Below, piece by piece: positions 48,676-58,412 of a DNA stretch of 64,000 bases (position 1 is its first letter; each line of letters starts with the position of its first letter). The DNA lies in the NCBI RefSeq assembly GCF_014196455.1, contig NZ_JACIDS010000002.1, positions 930,001 through 994,000 on the forward strand, in the 5' to 3' direction. The DNA is from Kaistia hirudinis. Lineage in GTDB: Bacteria; Pseudomonadota; Alphaproteobacteria; Rhizobiales; Kaistiaceae. The translations under genes and the position numbers were made by a program. The notes beneath the pieces are model-generated. The model saw only the letters and a program-made list of their open reading frames with translations, had not been told where the DNA came from and ran no database searches.

Positions 48676-49398
48676 TTACCCGCTCGCCGTCATCACGCGA
48701 AACACCTCGCCCGAGCCCGCGTCGCGAATGAGGTCCACGCGTTCGCCGTTCCAGTGATAGTCGAGGTGGCGGCCCTGCATGGCGTTGGCGGCGAGGTCGG
48801 GGAACAGCAGTGCCGCGCACTGGCCGCCGGGCAGGCGGACGCTCGGATAGAGGATGCCTTCCGAGCCGGCGGCGCGGAGCGCGGCGCCGAGCCGCTGGCT
48901 TTCGGCATAGCTGTCCGGTGAAAGATAGCGGGCGCGGTCAGCAAGTTGGCTGACATCGTGCAGTTCGGCCGCGACATCGAGCAGGATCTCGCGGAACTGC
49001 GAGGTCCAGCCCGGCGCCTCGCGTGTCGCCGCCATGAAGCGGCCATGGTGGTGCATGGTCTCGAACAGCGCCACCTCGAAGGTTCGCCCGACATAGAGCA
49101 GGCCGAAGGCGCCATCGGAAAAGCGGCTCGGCCGGTCGCGGCTGACATGGGTGAACGGCGCCATCAGATAGGACGCGCCGGGTCCGGAAACGCGGCGCTC
49201 GGCCGGGACGAGATCGAGATTGCCGATCGTCTCCATCAGGCGCGGATTGGTCTTCTGCTCCGCGGCGATCAGCAGCGGCCAGTCGGCCGGATCGGCAATG
49301 TCCTCGAACAGGTCGACCGGCGGATAGATCGAGCGGATGATCCGCACGCCCGGCTTCCACGCGACGCGGCGGATCGGGATCGCGGCGAGGTCGCTCAC
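48676..49398 (-). CDS. RES domain toxin of a RES-Xre toxin-antitoxin pair
   Basis: 240-residue RES domain protein. Characterised members (MbcT, ParT, Res) degrade or transfer from NAD+. Key blocks are VRIIRSIYPP with the conserved Arg, GASYLMAPFTHVS, LLYVGRTFEVALFETMHHHG with the expected Tyr and Glu, and a C-terminal SEGILYPSVRLPGGQCAALL. The GTG start at 49398 overlaps the antitoxin stop as GTGA, the usual coupling with the antitoxin first. Which NAD reaction it performs cannot be told. Confidence 0.88.
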   Translation of the reverse strand: MSDLAAIPIRRVAWKPGVRIIRSIYPPVDLFEDIADPADWPLLIAAEQKTNPRLMETIGNLDLVPAERRVSGPGASYLMAPFTHVSRDRPSRFSDGAFGLLYVGRTFEVALFETMHHHGRFMAATREAPGWTSQFREILLDVAAELHDVSQLADRARYLSPDSYAESQRLGAALRAAGSEGILYPSVRLPGGQCAALLFPDLAANAMQGRHLDYHWNGERVDLIRDAGSGEVFRVMTASG

Positions 49399-49808
49399 CA
49401 GGCGCCGCGCTCCGCATCGAGATAGCGGCGCACGCGCATCAGATCGGTCAGCTCGCCATTGAGCATCACGGCCAGTGCCGTCTTGTCGCCGAAGGCCGCG
49501 TTCGGCTTGCGCACCCAGGCATAGGCCCGGTCCGCTTCCTTGAAGATCAGGCGAAGCGCCTTGTGGATCCCCATCAGATTGGACATGCGCGTGCGCTGGT
49601 CGCGGTCGATGCGGCCGGGATTGCCGGCCTTCCAGCGCGCGAAGGTGCGCGGGGCGACATCCAAGAGGATCGCGGCTTCGGCATCGGTCAAATTCCAGAG
49701 GCGGAACAGATTGAGCGAGGCGCGCAGCAGCGCCCCGGCCTCGGCATCGCTGATCGGCTCGGGCGAGAAGTCGGCGGCGCGCGCTGCGATCGGAACGACA
49801 TGCGGCAT
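49395..49808 (-). CDS. Antitoxin Xre/MbcA/ParS-type (DUF2384)
   Basis: 137 residues. An N-terminal helix-turn-helix region (FRLWNLTDAEAAILLDVAPR, TFARWKAGNP) is followed by the DUF2384 toxin-binding part (MSNLMGIHKALRLIFKEADR, AYAWVRKPNAAFGDKTALAV, MLNGELTDLMRVRRYLDA). It should neutralise the RES protein and repress the operon. AAGGAGACTGCG fixes the ATG at 49808, although the frame has an ATG nine codons earlier. A possible operator lies just upstream. Confidence 0.88.
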   Translation of the reverse strand: MPHVVPIAARAADFSPEPISDAEAGALLRASLNLFRLWNLTDAEAAILLDVAPRTFARWKAGNPGRIDRDQRTRMSNLMGIHKALRLIFKEADRAYAWVRKPNAAFGDKTALAVMLNGELTDLMRVRRYLDAERGAW

Positions 49809-49828
49809 CGCAGTCTCCTTGATGACGA

Positions 49829-49852
49829 ATGGCATATATATGGCTAAGTTTA
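49829..49852 (-). promoter_or_regulatory. Candidate -10/operator of the RES-Xre operon
   Basis: The palindromic core CATATATATG (49833-49842) sits in an otherwise GC-rich gap 21 nt before the antitoxin start. It could serve as -10 region and autoregulatory operator. Only the palindrome is seen; its role is inferred from other Xre-type antitoxins. Confidence 0.4.
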
Positions 49853-51308: not shown

Positions 51309-52532
51309 ATGTCGCGTCTGTCTGGCTTGGATCGGCGTCTGCCGGTCACGGTGCTCTCCGGCTTTCTCGGTGCCGGGAAGACGACCCTGCTCAACCATGT
51401 GCTCAACAATCGCGAGGGGCGGAAGGTTGCCGTCATCGTCAACGACATGTCGGAGGTCAATATCGACGCCGATCTCGTCCGGGATGGCGGGGCGGGGCTG
51501 TCGCGCACCGATGAGAAGCTGGTCGAGATGACCAATGGCTGCATCTGCTGCACGCTGCGCGACGATCTGCTCGCCGAAGTGCGCCGCCTCGCCGCCGAAG
51601 GCCGGTTCGATTGCCTGCTGATTGAGAGCACCGGCATCGCCGAGCCGCTGCCGGTGGCCGCGACCTTCGATTTTCGCGACGAGGCCGGGCAGTCGCTGTC
51701 GGATGTCGCTCAGCTCGACGCGATGGTGACCGTCGTGGATGCCGTCAACCTGCTCAAGGACTACACCTCGCATGACCTGCTCGCCGATCGGGGCGAGACG
51801 GCCGGCGAGGGCGATTTCCGCACGCTCGTGGATCTGCTTGTCGAGCAGATCGAATTCGCGGATGTCGTCGTCATCAACAAGGTCCGCGATGTCACGCCCG
51901 ATGCGCTGGCCGATGTCCGCCGCGTCGTGCGCGGGCTCAATGCCGATGCGCGCATCGTCGAGACCGATTTCGCCAAGGCGCCGCTCGACCTGGTCCTCGA
52001 TACGGGGCTCTATGATCCGGAACGCTCGCGCGCGCATCCGCTCTGGATGAAGGAGCTCTACCACCACGAGGATCACGTGCCCGAGACGGAGGAGTATGGC
52101 ATCCGCTCCTTCGTCTACCGTGCGCGCCGTCCGTTTCATCCCGCGCGCCTCTACAAGGCGCTTGGCCGCGGCTTTCCCGGCGTCGTCCGCGCCAAGGGCC
52201 ATTTCTGGATCGCGACGCGGCCAGCCTGGCTGGCCGAGCTCTCGATCGCCGGCTCGATCCTGCGCACCGAGGGCCTCGGCTATTGGTGGGCGGCCGTGCC
52301 GCGCGAGCGCTGGCCGCGCGACGAGGAGAGCGTTGCGATGATGCGCCGCAACTGGACGCCGACCTGGGGCGACCGGCGGCAGGAACTCGTCTTCATCGGC
52401 GGTCCCGCCATGGACGAGGCCGCGATCCGCGCCGTGCTCGACAATTGCCTCTATGGCAGCGTGACCACGGGCCTGACGCAGGCGGCCGCCAATCTGGACG
52501 ATCCGTTCCCGCATTGGGGCAGGGTGGCGTGA
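51309..52532 (+). CDS. CobW/COG0523 family GTP-binding metallochaperone, probably zinc-related
   Basis: 407 residues. The G domain has Walker [13 protein letters not shown] (residues 17-28), the metal-binding [11 protein letters not shown] (Cys78, Cys80, Cys81), a Walker B-like [11 protein letters not shown] and VVINKVRD for guanine recognition. The CobW C-terminal domain follows ([20 protein letters not shown]). A metal-binding HHEDH lies at about residue 257. COG0523 proteins transfer metals to client enzymes during limitation. The Zur-type operator in front indicates the zinc branch, not cobalamin synthesis. GAGGAACGC precedes the ATG. Confidence 0.92.
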
Positions 52533-52541
52533 ACGAGGCTT

Positions 52542-52567
52542 AGCCCCGGTCCGTCACGGACCGGGCT
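52542..52567. terminator. Hairpin between convergent cobW-like and kaiB genes
   Basis: AGCCCCGGTCCG and CGGACCGGGCT form an 11-bp stem with one bulged C and a 3-nt loop. There is no T-run on either side, so termination may be weak. Its position between two convergent stops supports a bidirectional role. Confidence 0.45.
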
Positions 52568-52571
52568 CCGG

Positions 52572-52874
52572 TCAGAGCGAGAGACGCTCGACAACGGCGT
52601 CGCGGTCGGACAGGTCGCCGACGATCAGGATCCGCCGGCCCGCGCGGATCGAGACCAGCGAAGGCGTCGCGAAGATCTGGCGGGAGAAGGCGGCCTTCGG
52701 ATCGCGCCGCACATCGACGACCACGACGTCGTCGGGGCGCGATGCCAGCCGGCTGACGATCTCGTCCAGATTGTCGATGGCACGCCGCGACGACAGGTTG
52801 TCGCCGGCCACATAGAGCTCCAGAATGTGGCGATCGCAGCCACGCTCTTCGGCATTGTTCGACAGGGCCATCAT
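52572..52874 (-). CDS. kaiB: KaiB-like clock protein
   Basis: 100 residues with the thioredoxin-like KaiB signature: LELYVAGDNLSSRRAIDNLD, VVVVDVRRDPKAAFSRQIFA, then TPSLVSIRAGRRILIVGDLS and DRDAVVERL. In cyanobacteria KaiB refolds and binds the KaiC CI ring; in alphaproteobacteria kaiBC pairs without kaiA have been linked to timing and stress. Its ATG overlaps the kaiC stop as ATGA, so both are translated together. No kaiA is in the window. Confidence 0.9.
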   Translation of the reverse strand: MMALSNNAEERGCDRHILELYVAGDNLSSRRAIDNLDEIVSRLASRPDDVVVVDVRRDPKAAFSRQIFATPSLVSIRAGRRILIVGDLSDRDAVVERLSL

Positions 52875-54589
52875 GGCGCCTCTTCTGAACCGGCAGTGTG
52901 GCTGGCCCGCGCATTGCTCCGCAACTGGCTCAGTTCCTCCCGCCGCTCCTCCTCCTGTCGACCGATCTCTTTCGACCGGCCGACGAAGACGGCAAACTCG
53001 CTCTGCTTTTCGGCAAGTTCATGGCTGAGGTCGGCAATGCGGCGTTCCGTCTCCTCGATCGAGCGCCGGAGCAGCCGGGCGCGTTCGGCTGCGGCGAATT
53101 CGGCCGCCTCCGCCGCCAGATGATTGGCGCGTTCCTTTTGCCAGCGCAGCGAGCCCATCAGAACCGCTCCGTCCTCGACATAAGCATCGGCGATCGTGAT
53201 GCCGCGACTGTCCAGCAGCAGCTCGCCGACTTGGTTGGAGTGCGCCGTGCCGCGGGACTTGACGATGGTCAATGCCCGGTTGCGTTCTCCGTTGTTCACG
53301 ACGTAGGATAGATGAATCCAGTTGTCGCACAAGGTCGAGACATAAGAGCGCGAGGATTCGGCTTCCGTCGCGTTGCGTTCGAGCAGGCTGGTCAGGACGA
53401 CCGTGATCCCTTCGCGCTTGCAGAACTGGGTCAGCCGGCGCACGGCGCTTTGCGAACTTGGCGAGGCCGTGAAGATCGAGATCGGATCGATCATCACATG
53501 GCGCGGCGCATGCCGCCTGATCTGGTCGAGGATCTCGTGCACGAATTCATCCGGGCCGGCCGATCGATCCGCCATGCCGTGAATCCTGAGCAGGCCCGAG
53601 GCGAGGTGCGCGGAGAGGTCGGTGCAGACAGAGGCGACGTTGCGCACGATCTCCTTCGGCGCCTCGTCGAAGCTGATGCCGAGCGCCCTCTCGCCGCGTT
53701 CGCAGACGGCGGCCAGGAAGCGGGTGCCGAGGGTCGTCTTCGCCGTGCCGGGCGCGCCGGACAGAAGCGTGCTGGATCCGCGAAAAAGGCCGCCGCCGAG
53801 CATGGTGTCGAGGCGCGCAATGCCGGTGGGCAGCCGTTCCGTCGAAACGGGAATGGCGGGCGGCTCCGGATTGGTCGCGTCCACCACGATTCCGCTGGCC
53901 GTCATGACGAAGGCGACGCGTCCCTGGGCATGGGCGGAGCTGCGGTATTTCTGGATCGCAACGCCGCGGGTCGAGAAGCCGTCTTCCGCGTCGCGGCTCA
54001 GTTCGACGACGCAATCGGCCATGTAGAGCGCCATCTCCTCGAAGCCGGCGCCGCGAAGCGGGCTCGCTTTCACGGTGACGATCACCGTGCCGGGATGCGA
54101 TTCGACATAGCTTTGCAGCCGGACGAGTTCGCCCCGCTGCGCGCTGTGCGAATCGAGGATCGTCAGCAGCGCGTCGATCCCGTCGAGCACCACGAAGGGC
54201 GGGGCACCCGAATCCCCGGCGCCTTCGATCGCCGACAGCAGGCCGCCAATATCGAAACCGCCGCTGATCATCATGTCCGGATCGGGGCGGCCATCCACGA
54301 ACAGCAGCTGGCCGGCATCGACGAGCCGCTGCACGTCCCAATCGAAGGAATTCATGTCCGACAGCGCGCTCCGCGGCGACTGCTCGAACGAGATGAAGAG
54401 GCCGGTCCGGCCAGTTTGGCGGATCATGTTCAGCATCGCCTGCATGGCGAAGACCGTCTTGCCGGTTCCGGCGGCGCCGATGACCGCGGTGACACGGCCG
54501 AGCGGCAGGCCGCCTGCGGACATGACGTCGAACCCGGCGATTCCCGTCGGAATCTTGTCGGGTCGGATCGACCCGATCGTCTCGGCCAT
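52871..54589 (-). CDS. kaiC: KaiC-like two-domain ATPase/autokinase
   Basis: 572 residues. CI holds Walker A GAAGTGKT (38-45), ISFEQSP (68-72; the second of the usual two glutamates is Gln70) and a FVVLDGIDALL Walker B. CII holds Walker A GAPGTAKT (278-285), ISFDEAP (305-311) and VMIDPISIF. The segment SYVSTLCD aligns with the KaiC phosphorylation site, keeping Ser418-Thr419. Beyond about residue 480 comes a long charged coiled coil (EETERRIADLSHELAEKQSE) absent from cyanobacterial KaiC. The start at 54589 is chosen by alignment; the frame runs to 54718. It lies 53 nt after the EAL gene and overlaps kaiB. Confidence 0.92.
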   Translation of the reverse strand: MAETIGSIRPDKIPTGIAGFDVMSAGGLPLGRVTAVIGAAGTGKTVFAMQAMLNMIRQTGRTGLFISFEQSPRSALSDMNSFDWDVQRLVDAGQLLFVDGRPDPDMMISGGFDIGGLLSAIEGAGDSGAPPFVVLDGIDALLTILDSHSAQRGELVRLQSYVESHPGTVIVTVKASPLRGAGFEEMALYMADCVVELSRDAEDGFSTRGVAIQKYRSSAHAQGRVAFVMTASGIVVDATNPEPPAIPVSTERLPTGIARLDTMLGGGLFRGSSTLLSGAPGTAKTTLGTRFLAAVCERGERALGISFDEAPKEIVRNVASVCTDLSAHLASGLLRIHGMADRSAGPDEFVHEILDQIRRHAPRHVMIDPISIFTASPSSQSAVRRLTQFCKREGITVVLTSLLERNATEAESSRSYVSTLCDNWIHLSYVVNNGERNRALTIVKSRGTAHSNQVGELLLDSRGITIADAYVEDGAVLMGSLRWQKERANHLAAEAAEFAAAERARLLRRSIEETERRIADLSHELAEKQSEFAVFVGRSKEIGRQEEERREELSQLRSNARASHTAGSEEAP

Positions 54590-54642
54590 GCGTGCCACTC
54601 CAGTCCAGCGTCCGCACTGACCCACGTCGGCCGCGAACCAGC

Positions 54643-56262
54643 TTACTCGGTGATCAAGGCCGACAAATCCGAGACTGGCAAGGGGGGCGAATAGAGATAT
54701 CCCTGACCCGCATCGCACCAGATGCCCTGAAGAAAATCAGCCTGGGCGGCTGTCTCGACGCCCTCCGCGATGATCCTCATCCCCAGGCTGTGGCCCATGG
54801 CGACGATCGCGCGCGTGATCGCGCCGGCAGCCTTGTCGCCGGGCAGTTCCCGGATGAAGGAGCGATCGATCTTCAGATGGTCGGCCGGGAAGCGGTTGAG
54901 ATAGGAGAGGCTCGAATAGCCCGTTCCGAAGTCGTCGATGGCGATCGTCACCCCCAGGGCGTGGATCGCCGCCAGCGGACGCAGTCCGGCCTCGCCTTCC
55001 GGCATCAGCTGGCTCTCCGTGATTTCCAGCACCAGCCGCTGGGGTGGCAGACCGGATTCCGCGAGGATGGCGCGGACCGCATCGATGAAGCCCGGATGCC
55101 GGAGCTGGATCGGGGAGACATTGACCGAGACGGAGAGCTGTCCGGGCAGGCGGGCGATGTCGGAACAGGCCTTCGCCAGCACCCATCGCCCGAGCGCGTC
55201 GATCAGGCCGGTCCGCTCGGCCAGGGGGATGAAGACCGTCGGCGCGACGGCATCGCCGCCCGGCTGCTGCCAGCGCGCCAGTGCCTCGACGCTCGTGACG
55301 CTTCCGGAGGACATGTCGATCTGCGGCTGATAGAGGACGACGATCTCCCCGCGCGTCCAGGCGTCCTTGAGTTTCGCCGCGAGCGGCGCGTCGGCGGTCG
55401 AAATCTGCCGCCGCGCGCCGCGCAAGGAGCGTTTCGTGTCGTCGATCAGCGCGACGATGACGGCGCCGATCAGCAGGGCCGAGAGGATCGGGAGCGCTTC
55501 GATCGTCGCCTGCGGGCCGAACACCGTGGCGATGACCGCCACCAGAAGCAGCGGGGCGGCGACGAGAAGCAGGCGCCGCCGGACGAGACTGCCGCTCGAC
55601 TTCCTGGCGAGGACCCGGCGCATGGGCGTCTTGTCCGCGACGGATGCCAGGATGGCCGTCCCGCCGAGCAGGCCACCGGCCATGGTCGGCGCCGCCAACT
55701 GGCCGAAGAAGCCCTGCAGATGCGTGGCGTAGCCGATCGCGACAGCGCCGACGATCAGAAGCGCGAGGCCACTCGTCAGCTGGGCGAGGGCATAGCGGCG
55801 CAACTGCATGGAAATAACTGCGGCTGCGAGGCCGATCATCATCACCATGGTCTGGGGACTCATGCCGACCGGCGACCCTGCCAGGGCTTCGGCCGCCAGG
55901 CGGGCCCGGAAAGGCGAGATTGAACTGAACGCCTCGGGCCTTCCGCTCGCAACAGTGATCAGTCGAAATGCGACGATCCCCGCCGTGATCATCGACAGGG
56001 TGACGGCAAAGGCACGGTTCGCCCGCTCACGCCGCGGCGCGTAGCGCCTGCCAGAAGCCCAAATGGCGGCGCCGAGCGCGACCAGGCAGATCGCGGTCCA
56101 GGGGTGCGACGTCATGTGCACCGGCCCGACCCGCCAGAGTGGTGTACTATGCAATGAGTAGTTGAAGAGAACCAGCGCGCCCGTGGCGATGCACCCGCAG
56201 GCAAGCGCCGTCGACGTTATGCGCGCGCCGCGGATAGCCCACTGCCTGTATCGCCTCGACAA
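54643..56262 (-). CDS. Membrane-anchored EAL domain cyclic di-GMP phosphodiesterase
   Basis: 539 residues. The N-terminal 275 residues hold about seven to eight hydrophobic helices of a probable sensor. No GGDEF domain is present. The EAL domain (about 297-535) has every catalytic element: QPQID, E326 in VEALARW, N381, E413, DDFGTGYSSLSYL (D443, D444), K464 in LKIDRSFI, AEGVET (E500, E503) and GQGYLYS. It should hydrolyse c-di-GMP to pGpG. The start is a TTG at 56262, with GGGGGAAC about 9 nt upstream; no ATG fits. Same strand as kaiC and 53 nt before it, so probably one operon. Confidence 0.92.
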   Translation of the reverse strand: MSRRYRQWAIRGARITSTALACGCIATGALVLFNYSLHSTPLWRVGPVHMTSHPWTAICLVALGAAIWASGRRYAPRRERANRAFAVTLSMITAGIVAFRLITVASGRPEAFSSISPFRARLAAEALAGSPVGMSPQTMVMMIGLAAAVISMQLRRYALAQLTSGLALLIVGAVAIGYATHLQGFFGQLAAPTMAGGLLGGTAILASVADKTPMRRVLARKSSGSLVRRRLLLVAAPLLLVAVIATVFGPQATIEALPILSALLIGAVIVALIDDTKRSLRGARRQISTADAPLAAKLKDAWTRGEIVVLYQPQIDMSSGSVTSVEALARWQQPGGDAVAPTVFIPLAERTGLIDALGRWVLAKACSDIARLPGQLSVSVNVSPIQLRHPGFIDAVRAILAESGLPPQRLVLEITESQLMPEGEAGLRPLAAIHALGVTIAIDDFGTGYSSLSYLNRFPADHLKIDRSFIRELPGDKAAGAITRAIVAMGHSLGMRIIAEGVETAAQADFLQGIWCDAGQGYLYSPPLPVSDLSALITE

Positions 56263-56423
56263 GATGATGAGTTCCCCCGACGCCCACCATTGAGGTACCG
56301 GGAACCCTGACGGGCCAATTCCTAAGAATCGCCTTAAACCGTCACAGAAACACGGCCCGATCTACCGTGAGTCACGGCTTCGTGACGTCGTCACGCAGAA
56401 CGGGTGCGAGGGCCCGACGGGCG

Positions 56424-58412
56424 TCAATCCGCGCCGGTGTGGAAGAAGTCGTAGATCGTCTGCGCCATCTGGGCCGAGACGCCGGGGGCGCTCATCAGAT
56501 CCTGGATGCTGGCGCGGCTGACGGATTTGGCGGTGCCGAAATGGGCGAGCAAGGCGCGCTTCCGCGTCGGGCCGATACCCTCGATCTCGTCGAGCGGGTT
56601 CTTGGTCAGCGCGGTCTTGCGGCGGGCGCGATGCGAGCCGATGGCGAAACGATGCGCCTCGTCGCGGAGCCGCTGCACGAAATAGAGCACGGGGTCGCGC
56701 GGCTGCAGCATGAAGGGCTCGCGGCCGGGAATGAAGAACTTCTCGCGGCCCGCGTCGCGGTCCGGTCCCTTGGCAATTCCGACAAGCGGGACTTCGCCCT
56801 CGAGGCCGAGTTCCTCGAGGATGCCACGTGCGGCGGAGAGCTGGCCCGCGCCACCATCGATGAAGACGAGATCCGGCCAGGGGCCGAAGCCGTCCTCGTC
56901 GCGCGGCGCATTCTCGCGCGAGCCGTGCTCCTTGACGAGGCGGGAGAACCGGCGCGTCAGCACCTCGCGCATCATGCCGAAATCGTCGCCCGGCGTGATC
57001 TCCTCCGAGCGGATGTTGAACTTGCGGTACTGGTTCTTCACGAAGCCGCCCGGTCCGGCGACGATCATGCCGCCGACGGCGTTGGTGCCCATGATGTGGC
57101 TGTTGTCATAGACCTCGATCCGCTTCGGCGGCCCTTCGAGGCCGAACGCCTCGCCGACGCCTTCGAGCAGCTTGGCCTGGCTCGACGTCTCGGCGAGATT
57201 GCGGCCGAGCGCGTCGCGCGCATTGGTCAGCGCGTGGTCGACGAGGTCCTTCTTCTCGCCGCGCTTCGGCACGGCGATCTCGACCTTGTGGCCGGCATGC
57301 TCGCTGAGCGCCTCGGCGAGGAGGTCCATCTCCTCGATCTCGTGGCTGATCAGGATCAGCCGCGGGCAGGGCTTGTCCTCGTAGAACTGGGCGATGAAGG
57401 CGGCCAGCACCTCGGCCTCGCCGAGCGATTTGTCGGCGCGCGGATAGAAGGCGTGGTTGCCCCAGTTCTGCCCGGTGCGGAAGAAGAACACCTGCACGCA
57501 GCTCTGTCCGCCTTCCTGGTGGACGGCGATCACGTCTGCCTCGTCGACGCCCTGCGGGTTGATGCCCTGGTGCGACTGGACATGGGAGAGGGCGGCGATG
57601 CGGTCGCGATAGATAGCGGCGCGCTCGAAATCGAGCTCGGCGCTCGCCGATTCCATCGCGCGGGCGAGATCGGTGCGGATCGCGCTCGACTTGCCGGAGA
57701 GGAAGCCCTTCGCCTCCTTGACGAGGCCGGCATAGTCGGGAAGCGAGATTTCGCCCGTGCAGGGGGCCGAGCAGCGCTTGATCTGAAAGAGCAGGCAGGG
57801 CCGCGTCCGACTCTCATAGACGCTGTCGGTGCACGTGCGGATCAGGAAGGCGCGCTGGATCGCGTTCACGGTCCGCCCGACGGCGAGCGCCGAGGCGAAG
57901 GGGCCGAAATAGTCGCCCTTCCGCGTATGCGCGCCGCGATGCTTGACGATCTGCGGCGCCTCGTGATCGCCCGTGATCAGGATATAGGGGAACGACTTGT
58001 CGTCGCGCAGCAGCACGTTAAAGCGCGGCCGCAAGCGCTTGATCAGATTCGCTTCCAGCAGCAGCGCTTCCGTCTCGGTGCGCGTGGTGACGAACTCCAT
58101 CGTCGCCGTCTGCTGGATCATGCGAATGATGCGGTTCGACTGCATGCCGATCCGCGTATAGCTCGTCACGCGCTTCTTGAGATTGCGCGCCTTGCCGACA
58201 TAGAGGACCGTGCCCTTGGCGTCGAACATGCGATAGACGCCGGGCGCATTCGGCAGGCGCGTCACGAAATCGGCGATCACGGCCGCGCCCTGGCCGCGCG
58301 GCGTCAGCTCGCCGCCGGCCTCGAAGGCCATCTCCTCGGCGGGGATGTCCCCGGTCGCTTCCGTCTCCGGCGGAACCGGAGCGTTGCCGTCTGGTGTCGT
58401 GCTGTCGTTCAC
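56424..58412 (-). CDS. uvrC: Excinuclease ABC subunit C
   Basis: Makes both incisions in nucleotide excision repair. It has 662 residues. A GIY-YIG nuclease domain ([20 protein letters not shown], residues about 55-75), a Cys-containing segment ([13 protein letters not shown]), a UVR motif ([20 protein letters not shown]), the RNase H-like C-terminal nuclease ([30 protein letters not shown]) and helix-hairpin-helix repeats ([17 protein letters not shown]) are all present. A 40-residue acidic leader is extra. Its ATG overlaps the SDR stop (ATGA). Confidence 0.96.

Follow-up and report, generated by a model that had tools for sequence, protein, structure and literature searches.

Organization of the EAL–kaiC–kaiB locus

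The window, the whole 64-kb stretch of Kaistia hirudinis DNA that was analysed, carries a unit of three genes on the minus strand in the order EAL, kaiC, kaiB. The first gene (54643..56262) starts with TTG and encodes a predicted membrane EAL phosphodiesterase of 539 aa. It is followed by kaiC (52871..54589, ATG start), whose product of 572 aa has two domains and a C-terminal tail, and by kaiB (52572..52874, 100 aa). A gap of 53 nt (54590–54642) separates the EAL gene from kaiC, and kaiC and kaiB overlap by 4 nt; the coordinates bear out the arrangement reported in the initial annotation, which had also called the genes an apparent operon. The tight spacing and the conserved gene order favour an operon, and from the sequence co-transcription of the three genes is likely. 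A scan of 52300–56700 for sigma-70-type promoters found none (0.5 expected from shuffles). One terminator-like site (54752–54738) falls inside the EAL coding sequence, at its 3′ end; five such sites were predicted in total versus 2.1 expected. The gap between the EAL gene and kaiC did not fold better than its own shuffles (z 0.31).

KaiC, KaiB and the missing KaiA

KaiC matched Pfam in two stretches (1.8e-80), and its score was above the cut-off of PRK09302 (415 vs 408) and below that of the stricter TIGR02655 (245 vs 546). Its best solved relative is KaiC of Rhodobacter (Cereibacter) sphaeroides (8dba, 8.9e-85, residues 11–548 aligned). Walker motifs are present in both CI and CII. The phosphorylatable pair of CII is also present, as Ser418-Thr419 (codons 53333..53338); these predicted autophosphorylation sites are equivalent to S413/S414 of R. 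sphaeroides KaiC, the 8dba chain numbering being offset by 2 in this comparison. KaiC also has the C-terminal extension (about 50 aa) that marks the R. sphaeroides kind: of its 572 residues, the tail comprises approximately 481–572 (52874..53149), and the alignment with the tail of 8dba runs to residue 548.

Alignment to 8dba and a motif table revealed changes at two glutamate positions. The CI motif is FEQ, with the first glutamate kept and the second replaced by Gln70 (54380..54382), at the site of E63 in R. sphaeroides and E78 in S. elongatus. The CII motif is FDE, where Asp308 (53666..53668) replaces the catalytic glutamate, E302 in R. sphaeroides and E318 in S. elongatus. The unit had been described as clock-like, and a KaiBC pair with Walker motifs and Ser-Thr sites is indeed there, but because Gln occupies the second CI position and Asp the CII catalytic position, the label is uncertain for this KaiC. 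The two changes suggest a modified timer, perhaps slower or less autonomous.

KaiB was identified by Pfam (9.5e-12) and by matches to 11 solved KaiB-type sequences; its scores were far under the NCBIfam KaiB cut-offs (45 vs 110 and 44 vs 145 bits). That kaiBC occurs here without kaiA was confirmed: kaiB adjoins kaiC, and the KaiA profile PF07688 had no match anywhere in the genome, which spans 5.26 Mb in 14 contigs with a completeness of 100; the S. elongatus control was positive. Lacking KaiA, the unit is not of the cyanobacterial KaiABC circadian clock type.

The EAL protein

Pfam placed an EAL domain (1.7e-76) at residues 297–527 (54682..55374) and gave no match to GGDEF in this protein. 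Eight positions (E326, N381, E413, D443, D444, K464, E500 and Q520), which we take to be the catalytic residue set, are invariant in all 11 aligned kai-linked EAL domains, in agreement with the earlier statement that the catalytic residues are kept and GGDEF is lacking. With this set kept, the protein is a predicted c-di-GMP phosphodiesterase. Its membrane character, also proposed earlier, was seen by hydropathy as six membrane-like segments in the N-terminal half (approximately residues 1–290, 55393..56262); the same region has eight and seven segments in two K. soli relatives, and none were detected by hydropathy in the Xanthobacteraceae EAL proteins. No Pfam family matched the N-terminal membrane region. 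In AlphaFold models of four EAL protein sequences the EAL domain was usable (block means 65–96), and the N-domain was helical with low confidence (pLDDT about 35–50). A three-row profile of the N-domain found matches in 5 of the 397 genomes of the order, and a relative of the N-domain in genome G066 lies in an open frame that also carries a GGDEF motif.

The K. hirudinis genome has 11 EAL domains. Across 14 Kaistia genomes there are 91 further EAL matches at E <= 1e-40; of these, the two most similar to the window EAL domain were the kai-linked domains of K. soli (254 and 250 bits), and the next reached 215. The EAL gene is inherited together with kaiC.

Distribution of the unit in Kaistia and relatives

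The insert that carries the three genes is discrete, measures some 3.9 kb (52536..56426, ends approximate) and has uvrC on one side and cobW on the other. In four Kaistia genomes uvrC adjoins cobW and the unit is absent; at these sites similarity to the window stops at 56427–56440 and restarts at 52535. The unit was present in 2 of 14 Kaistia genomes. An automated search for related loci confirmed just two relatives. The order EAL–kaiC–kaiB was found again at two different K. soli loci and in one Xanthobacteraceae MAG; the pairing occurs at four loci with KaiC identity of about 60%, and kaiB is retained in all four of these EAL-only members. Conservation of the linkage in relatives, the lack of which the initial annotation had listed among the points that would count against its interpretation, was observed, and the comparison supports a link of kaiBC to a phosphodiesterase gene that persists at differing genomic places. 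The earlier proposal, in which c-di-GMP turnover at the membrane would tie KaiC phosphorylation to the motile/sessile switch, is partly supported.

Since the occurrence is scattered and K. soli holds the unit elsewhere, the unit appears to have been gained, not lost. The cassette has 66.5% G+C, compared with 66.1% for the window as a whole, 63.4% for the 10 kb on the left and 67.2% on the right; its GC3 is inside the range of the neighbouring genes, so composition speaks neither for nor against recent transfer. GAF-GGDEF genes adjoin both K. soli units. A kai-specific role for them was weakened by full-length relatives in Kaistia genomes without kaiC, and the genome of the window itself has a full-length relative (46%) that is unlinked to kai.

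Neighbours of kaiC and the KaiC tree

The three genome sets behind the 145 distinct KaiC matches overlap, and one KaiC was counted per locus. Flanks were retrieved for 89 matches, mostly the best first, and the survey comprised 87 kaiC loci including L009; L012, a repeat of L010, and the neighbours of 56 weaker or second-copy matches were left out. Since genes were called as simple ORFs, their lengths are approximations and those in noisy frames may be missed; neighbours were labelled by profiles seeded in this analysis, not by Pfam, which was also run on 26 neighbour or partner proteins. L147, in which KaiC is split, was included in the kinase/c-di-GMP count and left out of the trees.

Among these 87 loci, 43 had kaiC followed by kaiB: a kinase was found at 31, a c-di-GMP enzyme at 11 and neither at one. 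The linkage that the initial annotation had proposed to look for by surveying kaiC homologues recurs. Counting genes on the same strand as kai and no more than 600 bp away, none of the 43 had both a kinase and a c-di-GMP enzyme; at L147 a kinase is nearby on the opposite strand. At loci with kaiB before kaiC, GGDEF and kinase genes co-occur further out (e.g. L156, L164, L169 and L170). Ten of the 11 c-di-GMP loci encode an EAL domain in which none of the eight positions has changed, and the GGDEF motif differs from GG[DE]EF in five of the six GGDEF-EAL partners. As a rough control, the density of genes for c-di-GMP enzymes next to the kai unit was some five times that in more distant parts of the same stretches.

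The KaiC of the window falls in a fast-evolving clade of 10 members (support 100/99), sister to the clade of R. sphaeroides KaiC; its long branches may attract one another. Eight members have c-di-GMP partners and two, L134 and L135, have kinases, located directly upstream of kaiC in the slot of the EAL gene. The c-di-GMP label requires four changes on the smaller tree and three on the larger. By analogy, the analysis supports the view that the c-di-GMP enzyme occupies the place held by a histidine kinase in most sister loci. Gln at the second CI glutamate was found in all four EAL-only members and in 0 of 81 other KaiC with letters there (L147 was not in the motif table and L139 had no letters at the CI motif).

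Comparison with known systems and interpretation

De Luca et al. described as early as 2011 that kaiBC can be linked to GGDEF/EAL genes (PMC3164672). As in their clusters, a signalling gene adjoins kaiC–kaiB in the window; their partner is ‘immediately downstream’, whereas ours is EAL-only, upstream, membrane-bound by prediction and part of a discrete insert. Figure 4 of that paper may hold closer cases than the window unit. The R. sphaeroides KaiBC hourglass (PMC10076222) shares with the window the lack of KaiA, a tailed two-domain KaiC and the order kaiC then kaiB. It differs in having an HWE histidine kinase after kaiB instead of an EAL enzyme upstream, and intact glutamate pairs (E62/E63 and E302/E303) in KaiC. 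Rhodopseudomonas palustris and Legionella pneumophila likewise have KaiBC systems outside cyanobacteria, of the KaiC2 type; the passages of PMC5520375 compared name no c-di-GMP enzyme, and neither GGDEF nor cyclic di-GMP is a term used in the main text of that paper. In S. elongatus the clock shifts when c-di-GMP changes, although c-di-GMP itself had no consistent in vitro effect on the Kai proteins (PMC13001216). The functional link between c-di-GMP and Kai seen there parallels the one proposed for the window; that study used E. coli enzymes in a KaiABC cyanobacterium, with no genetic linkage.

By a narrow balance we favour a transferable module in which KaiBC resembles that of R. sphaeroides and the usual histidine kinase partner was replaced by an EAL-only membrane c-di-GMP phosphodiesterase, because a single insert carries all three genes, the EAL gene is co-inherited with kaiC, its active-site residues are kept and most sister loci bear kinases. 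The ATP/ADP ratio would drive the ATPase or phosphorylation state of KaiC and KaiB binding; these would gate the phosphodiesterase, which in turn would alter c-di-GMP at the membrane. The cassette suggests that in this lineage the timer may act on c-di-GMP and bypass the usual histidine kinase. Counted against this explanation were the repeated changes of the c-di-GMP label on the trees, the long branches, the presence of kinases in two of the 10 clade members, the membrane-free Xanthobacteraceae EAL proteins, the kinase at L147 and the co-occurrence of GGDEF and kinase genes at loci with kaiB before kaiC.

The EAL enzyme is likelier to be an output than an input. A membrane domain that senses a cue, with the protein or the c-di-GMP level setting the KaiBC state, would agree with the EAL gene being first in the unit, with the multi-segment N-domain and its GGDEF-bearing relative, and with the response of the cyanobacterial clock, but we regard it as unlikely given the inconsistent in vitro effect in S. 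elongatus and the histidine kinases in the sister slot, SasA, the best-known KaiC kinase partner, being an output. Chance adjacency was judged improbable from the gene density beside kai and the co-inheritance of the EAL gene. Three genes that travel as one cassette and act independently would fit the sporadic presence in Kaistia and the 11 EAL domains of the genome; such mere co-location is distinctly unlikely in view of four paired loci, co-inheritance, the rough density control and the tendency reported in 2011.

A doubtful but credible reading, compatible with the replaced-kinase module, is that KaiC is no longer a timer and instead serves the phosphodiesterase as a scaffold or as a switch set by the ATP state, CI hydrolysis being weakened by Gln70. 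The restriction of Gln to EAL-only members agrees with this. In R. sphaeroides KaiC a double E to Q change in CI abolished CI hydrolysis and hampered KaiB binding (PMC10076222), in S. elongatus it left 22% of the ATPase and no KaiB complex (PMC5007536), and E318D in CII was arrhythmic (PMC2777353). However, E77, which is named as the residue that activates water, is kept (as E69 in the window KaiC), and so are the Ser-Thr phosphosites, both Walker motifs and, in all EAL-only members, kaiB. More ambitiously, a distinct KaiC lineage could have swapped the kinase for c-di-GMP hydrolysis, KaiB and the active sites of KaiC having changed to match, and could spread as a self-contained timer cassette that sets c-di-GMP itself, with neither transcription nor two-component signalling in between; this is possible, with the balance somewhat against it.

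For KaiA-free KaiBC outside cyanobacteria, the cassette names a concrete candidate target, an enzyme with a simple assay. It is also a place to seek the factors linking c-di-GMP and Kai in S. elongatus (PMC13001216), and the window KaiC is a natural test of the role of the second CI glutamate. The cassette occurs in a soil genus, and K. soli holds two copies. KaiC genes on plasmids were found in 16 records, R. sphaeroides among them, with a best identity of 38%.

The EAL–kaiC–kaiB unit and its surroundings

The initial annotation described three genes on one strand, and this arrangement was borne out. The genes for an EAL protein (539 aa), KaiC (572 aa) and KaiB (100 aa) lie on the minus strand at 56262-52572, with a gap of 53 nt between the EAL gene and kaiC and an overlap of 4 nt between kaiC and kaiB. 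KaiA, which had been said to be missing, gave no match in the Kaistia hirudinis genome. The kaiC of the window is the sole full KaiC of this genome, and two further matches elsewhere in it are partial and weaker (E 1.5e-10 and E 2.6e-4).

The surroundings of uvrC were compared in 13 other Kaistia genomes. In four of them (L191, L195, L197 and L199) uvrC and cobW adjoin, spaced by about 31 to 480 bp, and no match to EAL, kaiC or kaiB was found at these sites; the other nine were uninformative on the insertion site because the fetched uvrC stretch held no cobW match. Similarity of the window to the four empty sites ends at 56427-56440 and restarts at 52535, thus the insert comprises the three genes plus a short leader. 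Kaistia soli carries two such units (L010 and L011), both away from the uvrC–cobW place, and the unit was not found in L198, the K. soli stretch fetched beside uvrC; L012 repeats the L010 locus, with identical matches, and was not counted. When 91 other EAL matches from 14 Kaistia genomes were compared with the EAL of the window, the nearest were the two kai-linked ones of K. soli. The KaiC of L009, a Xanthobacteraceae MAG locus with the same gene order, groups with L011 among the Kaistia copies (support 99/91), and this nested position in the KaiC trees points to horizontal movement. A GAF-GGDEF gene adjoins each K. soli unit (mutual identity 58%): in one unit it follows kaiB, in the other it lies upstream of the EAL gene in divergent orientation. 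Relatives of these genes are widespread in Kaistia and not restricted to kai loci.

Partners of kaiC in other genomes

KaiC was searched in 397 genomes of the order, 385 of the class and 398 of the phylum, in overlapping sets. We fetched 89 of the 145 distinct matches, which with L009 added gave 87 loci, and the genes lying up to 600 bp from the kai unit were labelled. Loci with kaiC then kaiB (n=43) had a kinase in 31 cases, a c-di-GMP enzyme in 11 and neither in one; those with kaiB before kaiC (n=36) had a kinase in 25, GGDEF in six and neither in five; of eight loci without kaiB, seven had a kinase and one neither. The sampled kinase neighbours were verified by Pfam as HWE or HisKA/HATPase. 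Within 600 bp, none of the 87 loci paired a kinase with a c-di-GMP enzyme on the kai strand; L147 has a kinase on the opposite strand, and in kaiB–kaiC loci GGDEF and kinase genes co-occur beyond 600 bp. In a rough control within the same stretches, c-di-GMP frames were about 5 times denser beside the kai unit than farther away, 20 in 205 kb versus 14 in 759 kb (near frames, edge within 600 bp; near zone, 1.2 kb per side).

The survey for EAL genes adjoining kaiC homologues, suggested in the initial annotation, found an EAL domain in 10 of the 11 c-di-GMP loci of the kaiC-then-kaiB type; the partner in L151 is a GGDEF protein only. Since the GGDEF-EAL partners keep the EAL residues and five of six depart from the GG[DE]EF motif (GGNEF twice, GDDEF, SSRNF and DADHF; intact only in L148), hydrolysis is the predicted activity common to these 10 loci.

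Several loci showed further peculiarities. In L147 (G598, a one-contig genome) kaiC extends over two overlapping open frames, the CI and CII parts, adjoined by kaiB and a GGDEF-EAL gene; a frameshift, an error and a true split are candidate explanations. At L152 (G834) an HD-GYP-like PAS-GAF-HD_5 gene precedes kaiC–kaiB and a GGDEF-EAL gene follows it; this single kai locus may encode two kinds of c-di-GMP hydrolase. L097 and L108 are two divergent kaiC–kaiB loci of one genome (G154), each with a GGDEF-EAL partner. In the kaiB–kaiC loci L163, L166, L167, L168, L171 and L172, kaiC is followed after 103 to 1075 bp by a GGDEF gene with an intact motif, that of L166 spanning two frames, and in five of the six a second kaiB stands between.

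The EAL protein

The protein had been described as an EAL enzyme free of GGDEF with all catalytic residues, and both points held: its Pfam match is EAL alone, and E326, N381, E413, D443, D444, K464, E500 and Q520, which we take to be the catalytic positions of EAL enzymes, are invariant in all 11 aligned domains from 10 kai-linked loci. In this alignment EVL replaces the EAL motif in L010, and the first EAL of L009 has lost E503. Hydropathy indicated about six hydrophobic segments within the N-terminal 290 residues, for which no Pfam family was matched. This region was matched in 2 of 150 order genomes by a single-sequence search and in 5 of 397 by a three-row profile, the profile matches being the three Kaistia kai-linked proteins plus weaker single matches in G066, G256 and G252; the region is probably a sensor domain that few c-di-GMP enzymes carry. 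No membrane N-terminal part was found in either Xanthobacteraceae EAL protein. The relative in G066 (L219) sits in an open frame with a GGDEF motif at its end. The second EAL-only gene of L009 (10860-11819), 1.3 kb downstream, shares 61% identity with the kaiC-adjoining one.

KaiC and KaiB

The solved structure nearest to the window KaiC is that of Rhodobacter sphaeroides (8dba), the likeness extending into the tail; in the trees R. sphaeroides KaiC falls in a separate clade. The clade of the window KaiC has 10 members (support 100/99), eight with c-di-GMP and two with kinase partners, and in both of the latter the kinase lies immediately upstream of kaiC, in the slot of the EAL gene. The c-di-GMP label requires four changes on the smaller tree, two of them forced by starred branches, and three on the larger tree; long branches were flagged in both. 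The clade KaiB proteins diverge from the LPxPxRKIIGDLS-like stretch of other KaiB.

Ser418-Thr419 are the predicted phosphorylation sites. Of 86 KaiC sequences tabulated for their motifs, 85 have letters at the CI glutamate pair, and the second glutamate of that pair is Gln only in the window, L009, L010 and L011. Exactly these four have an EAL-only partner. The CII pair is FDE in eight of the 10 clade members and FEE in L014 and L108; FDE likewise occurs in seven KaiC without kaiB. In CI of S. elongatus, E77 activates water and E78 coordinates magnesium, and in CII the catalytic glutamate is E318, with E318D arrhythmic (PMC2777353). Double E-to-Q replacement in CI abolished CI hydrolysis and hampered KaiB binding in R. 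sphaeroides (PMC10076222), and in S. elongatus it left 22% of ATPase and no KaiB complex (PMC5007536). Glu77 has been mutated singly as a catalytic residue (PMC6549140); no report on E78Q alone was found in the excerpts of KaiC literature searched.

Proposed linkage to c-di-GMP turnover

Linkage of kaiBC with GGDEF/EAL genes is of a known kind, after De Luca et al. (PMC3164672). For EAL-only kai partners, this KaiC clade, the FEQ motif and a cassette, no paper was found in our searches of open-licence literature. According to a 2026 J Bacteriol paper, the S. elongatus clock shifts when c-di-GMP is altered; the KaiB–KaiC rhythm was unaffected, and KaiC phosphorylation not consistently altered, in vitro (PMC13001216). 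In R. sphaeroides KaiC phosphorylation and KaiB binding track the ATP/ADP ratio (PMC10076222). Beyond the conserved gene unit, we infer every step of the mechanism: in the window's lineage the KaiC ring or KaiB would contact the EAL protein, and this contact would gate c-di-GMP hydrolysis at the membrane.

Elsewhere in the window, at 48676-49835 on the minus strand, Pfam identified an Xre/MbcA-type antitoxin gene followed by a RES-domain gene, a known toxin-antitoxin pairing.
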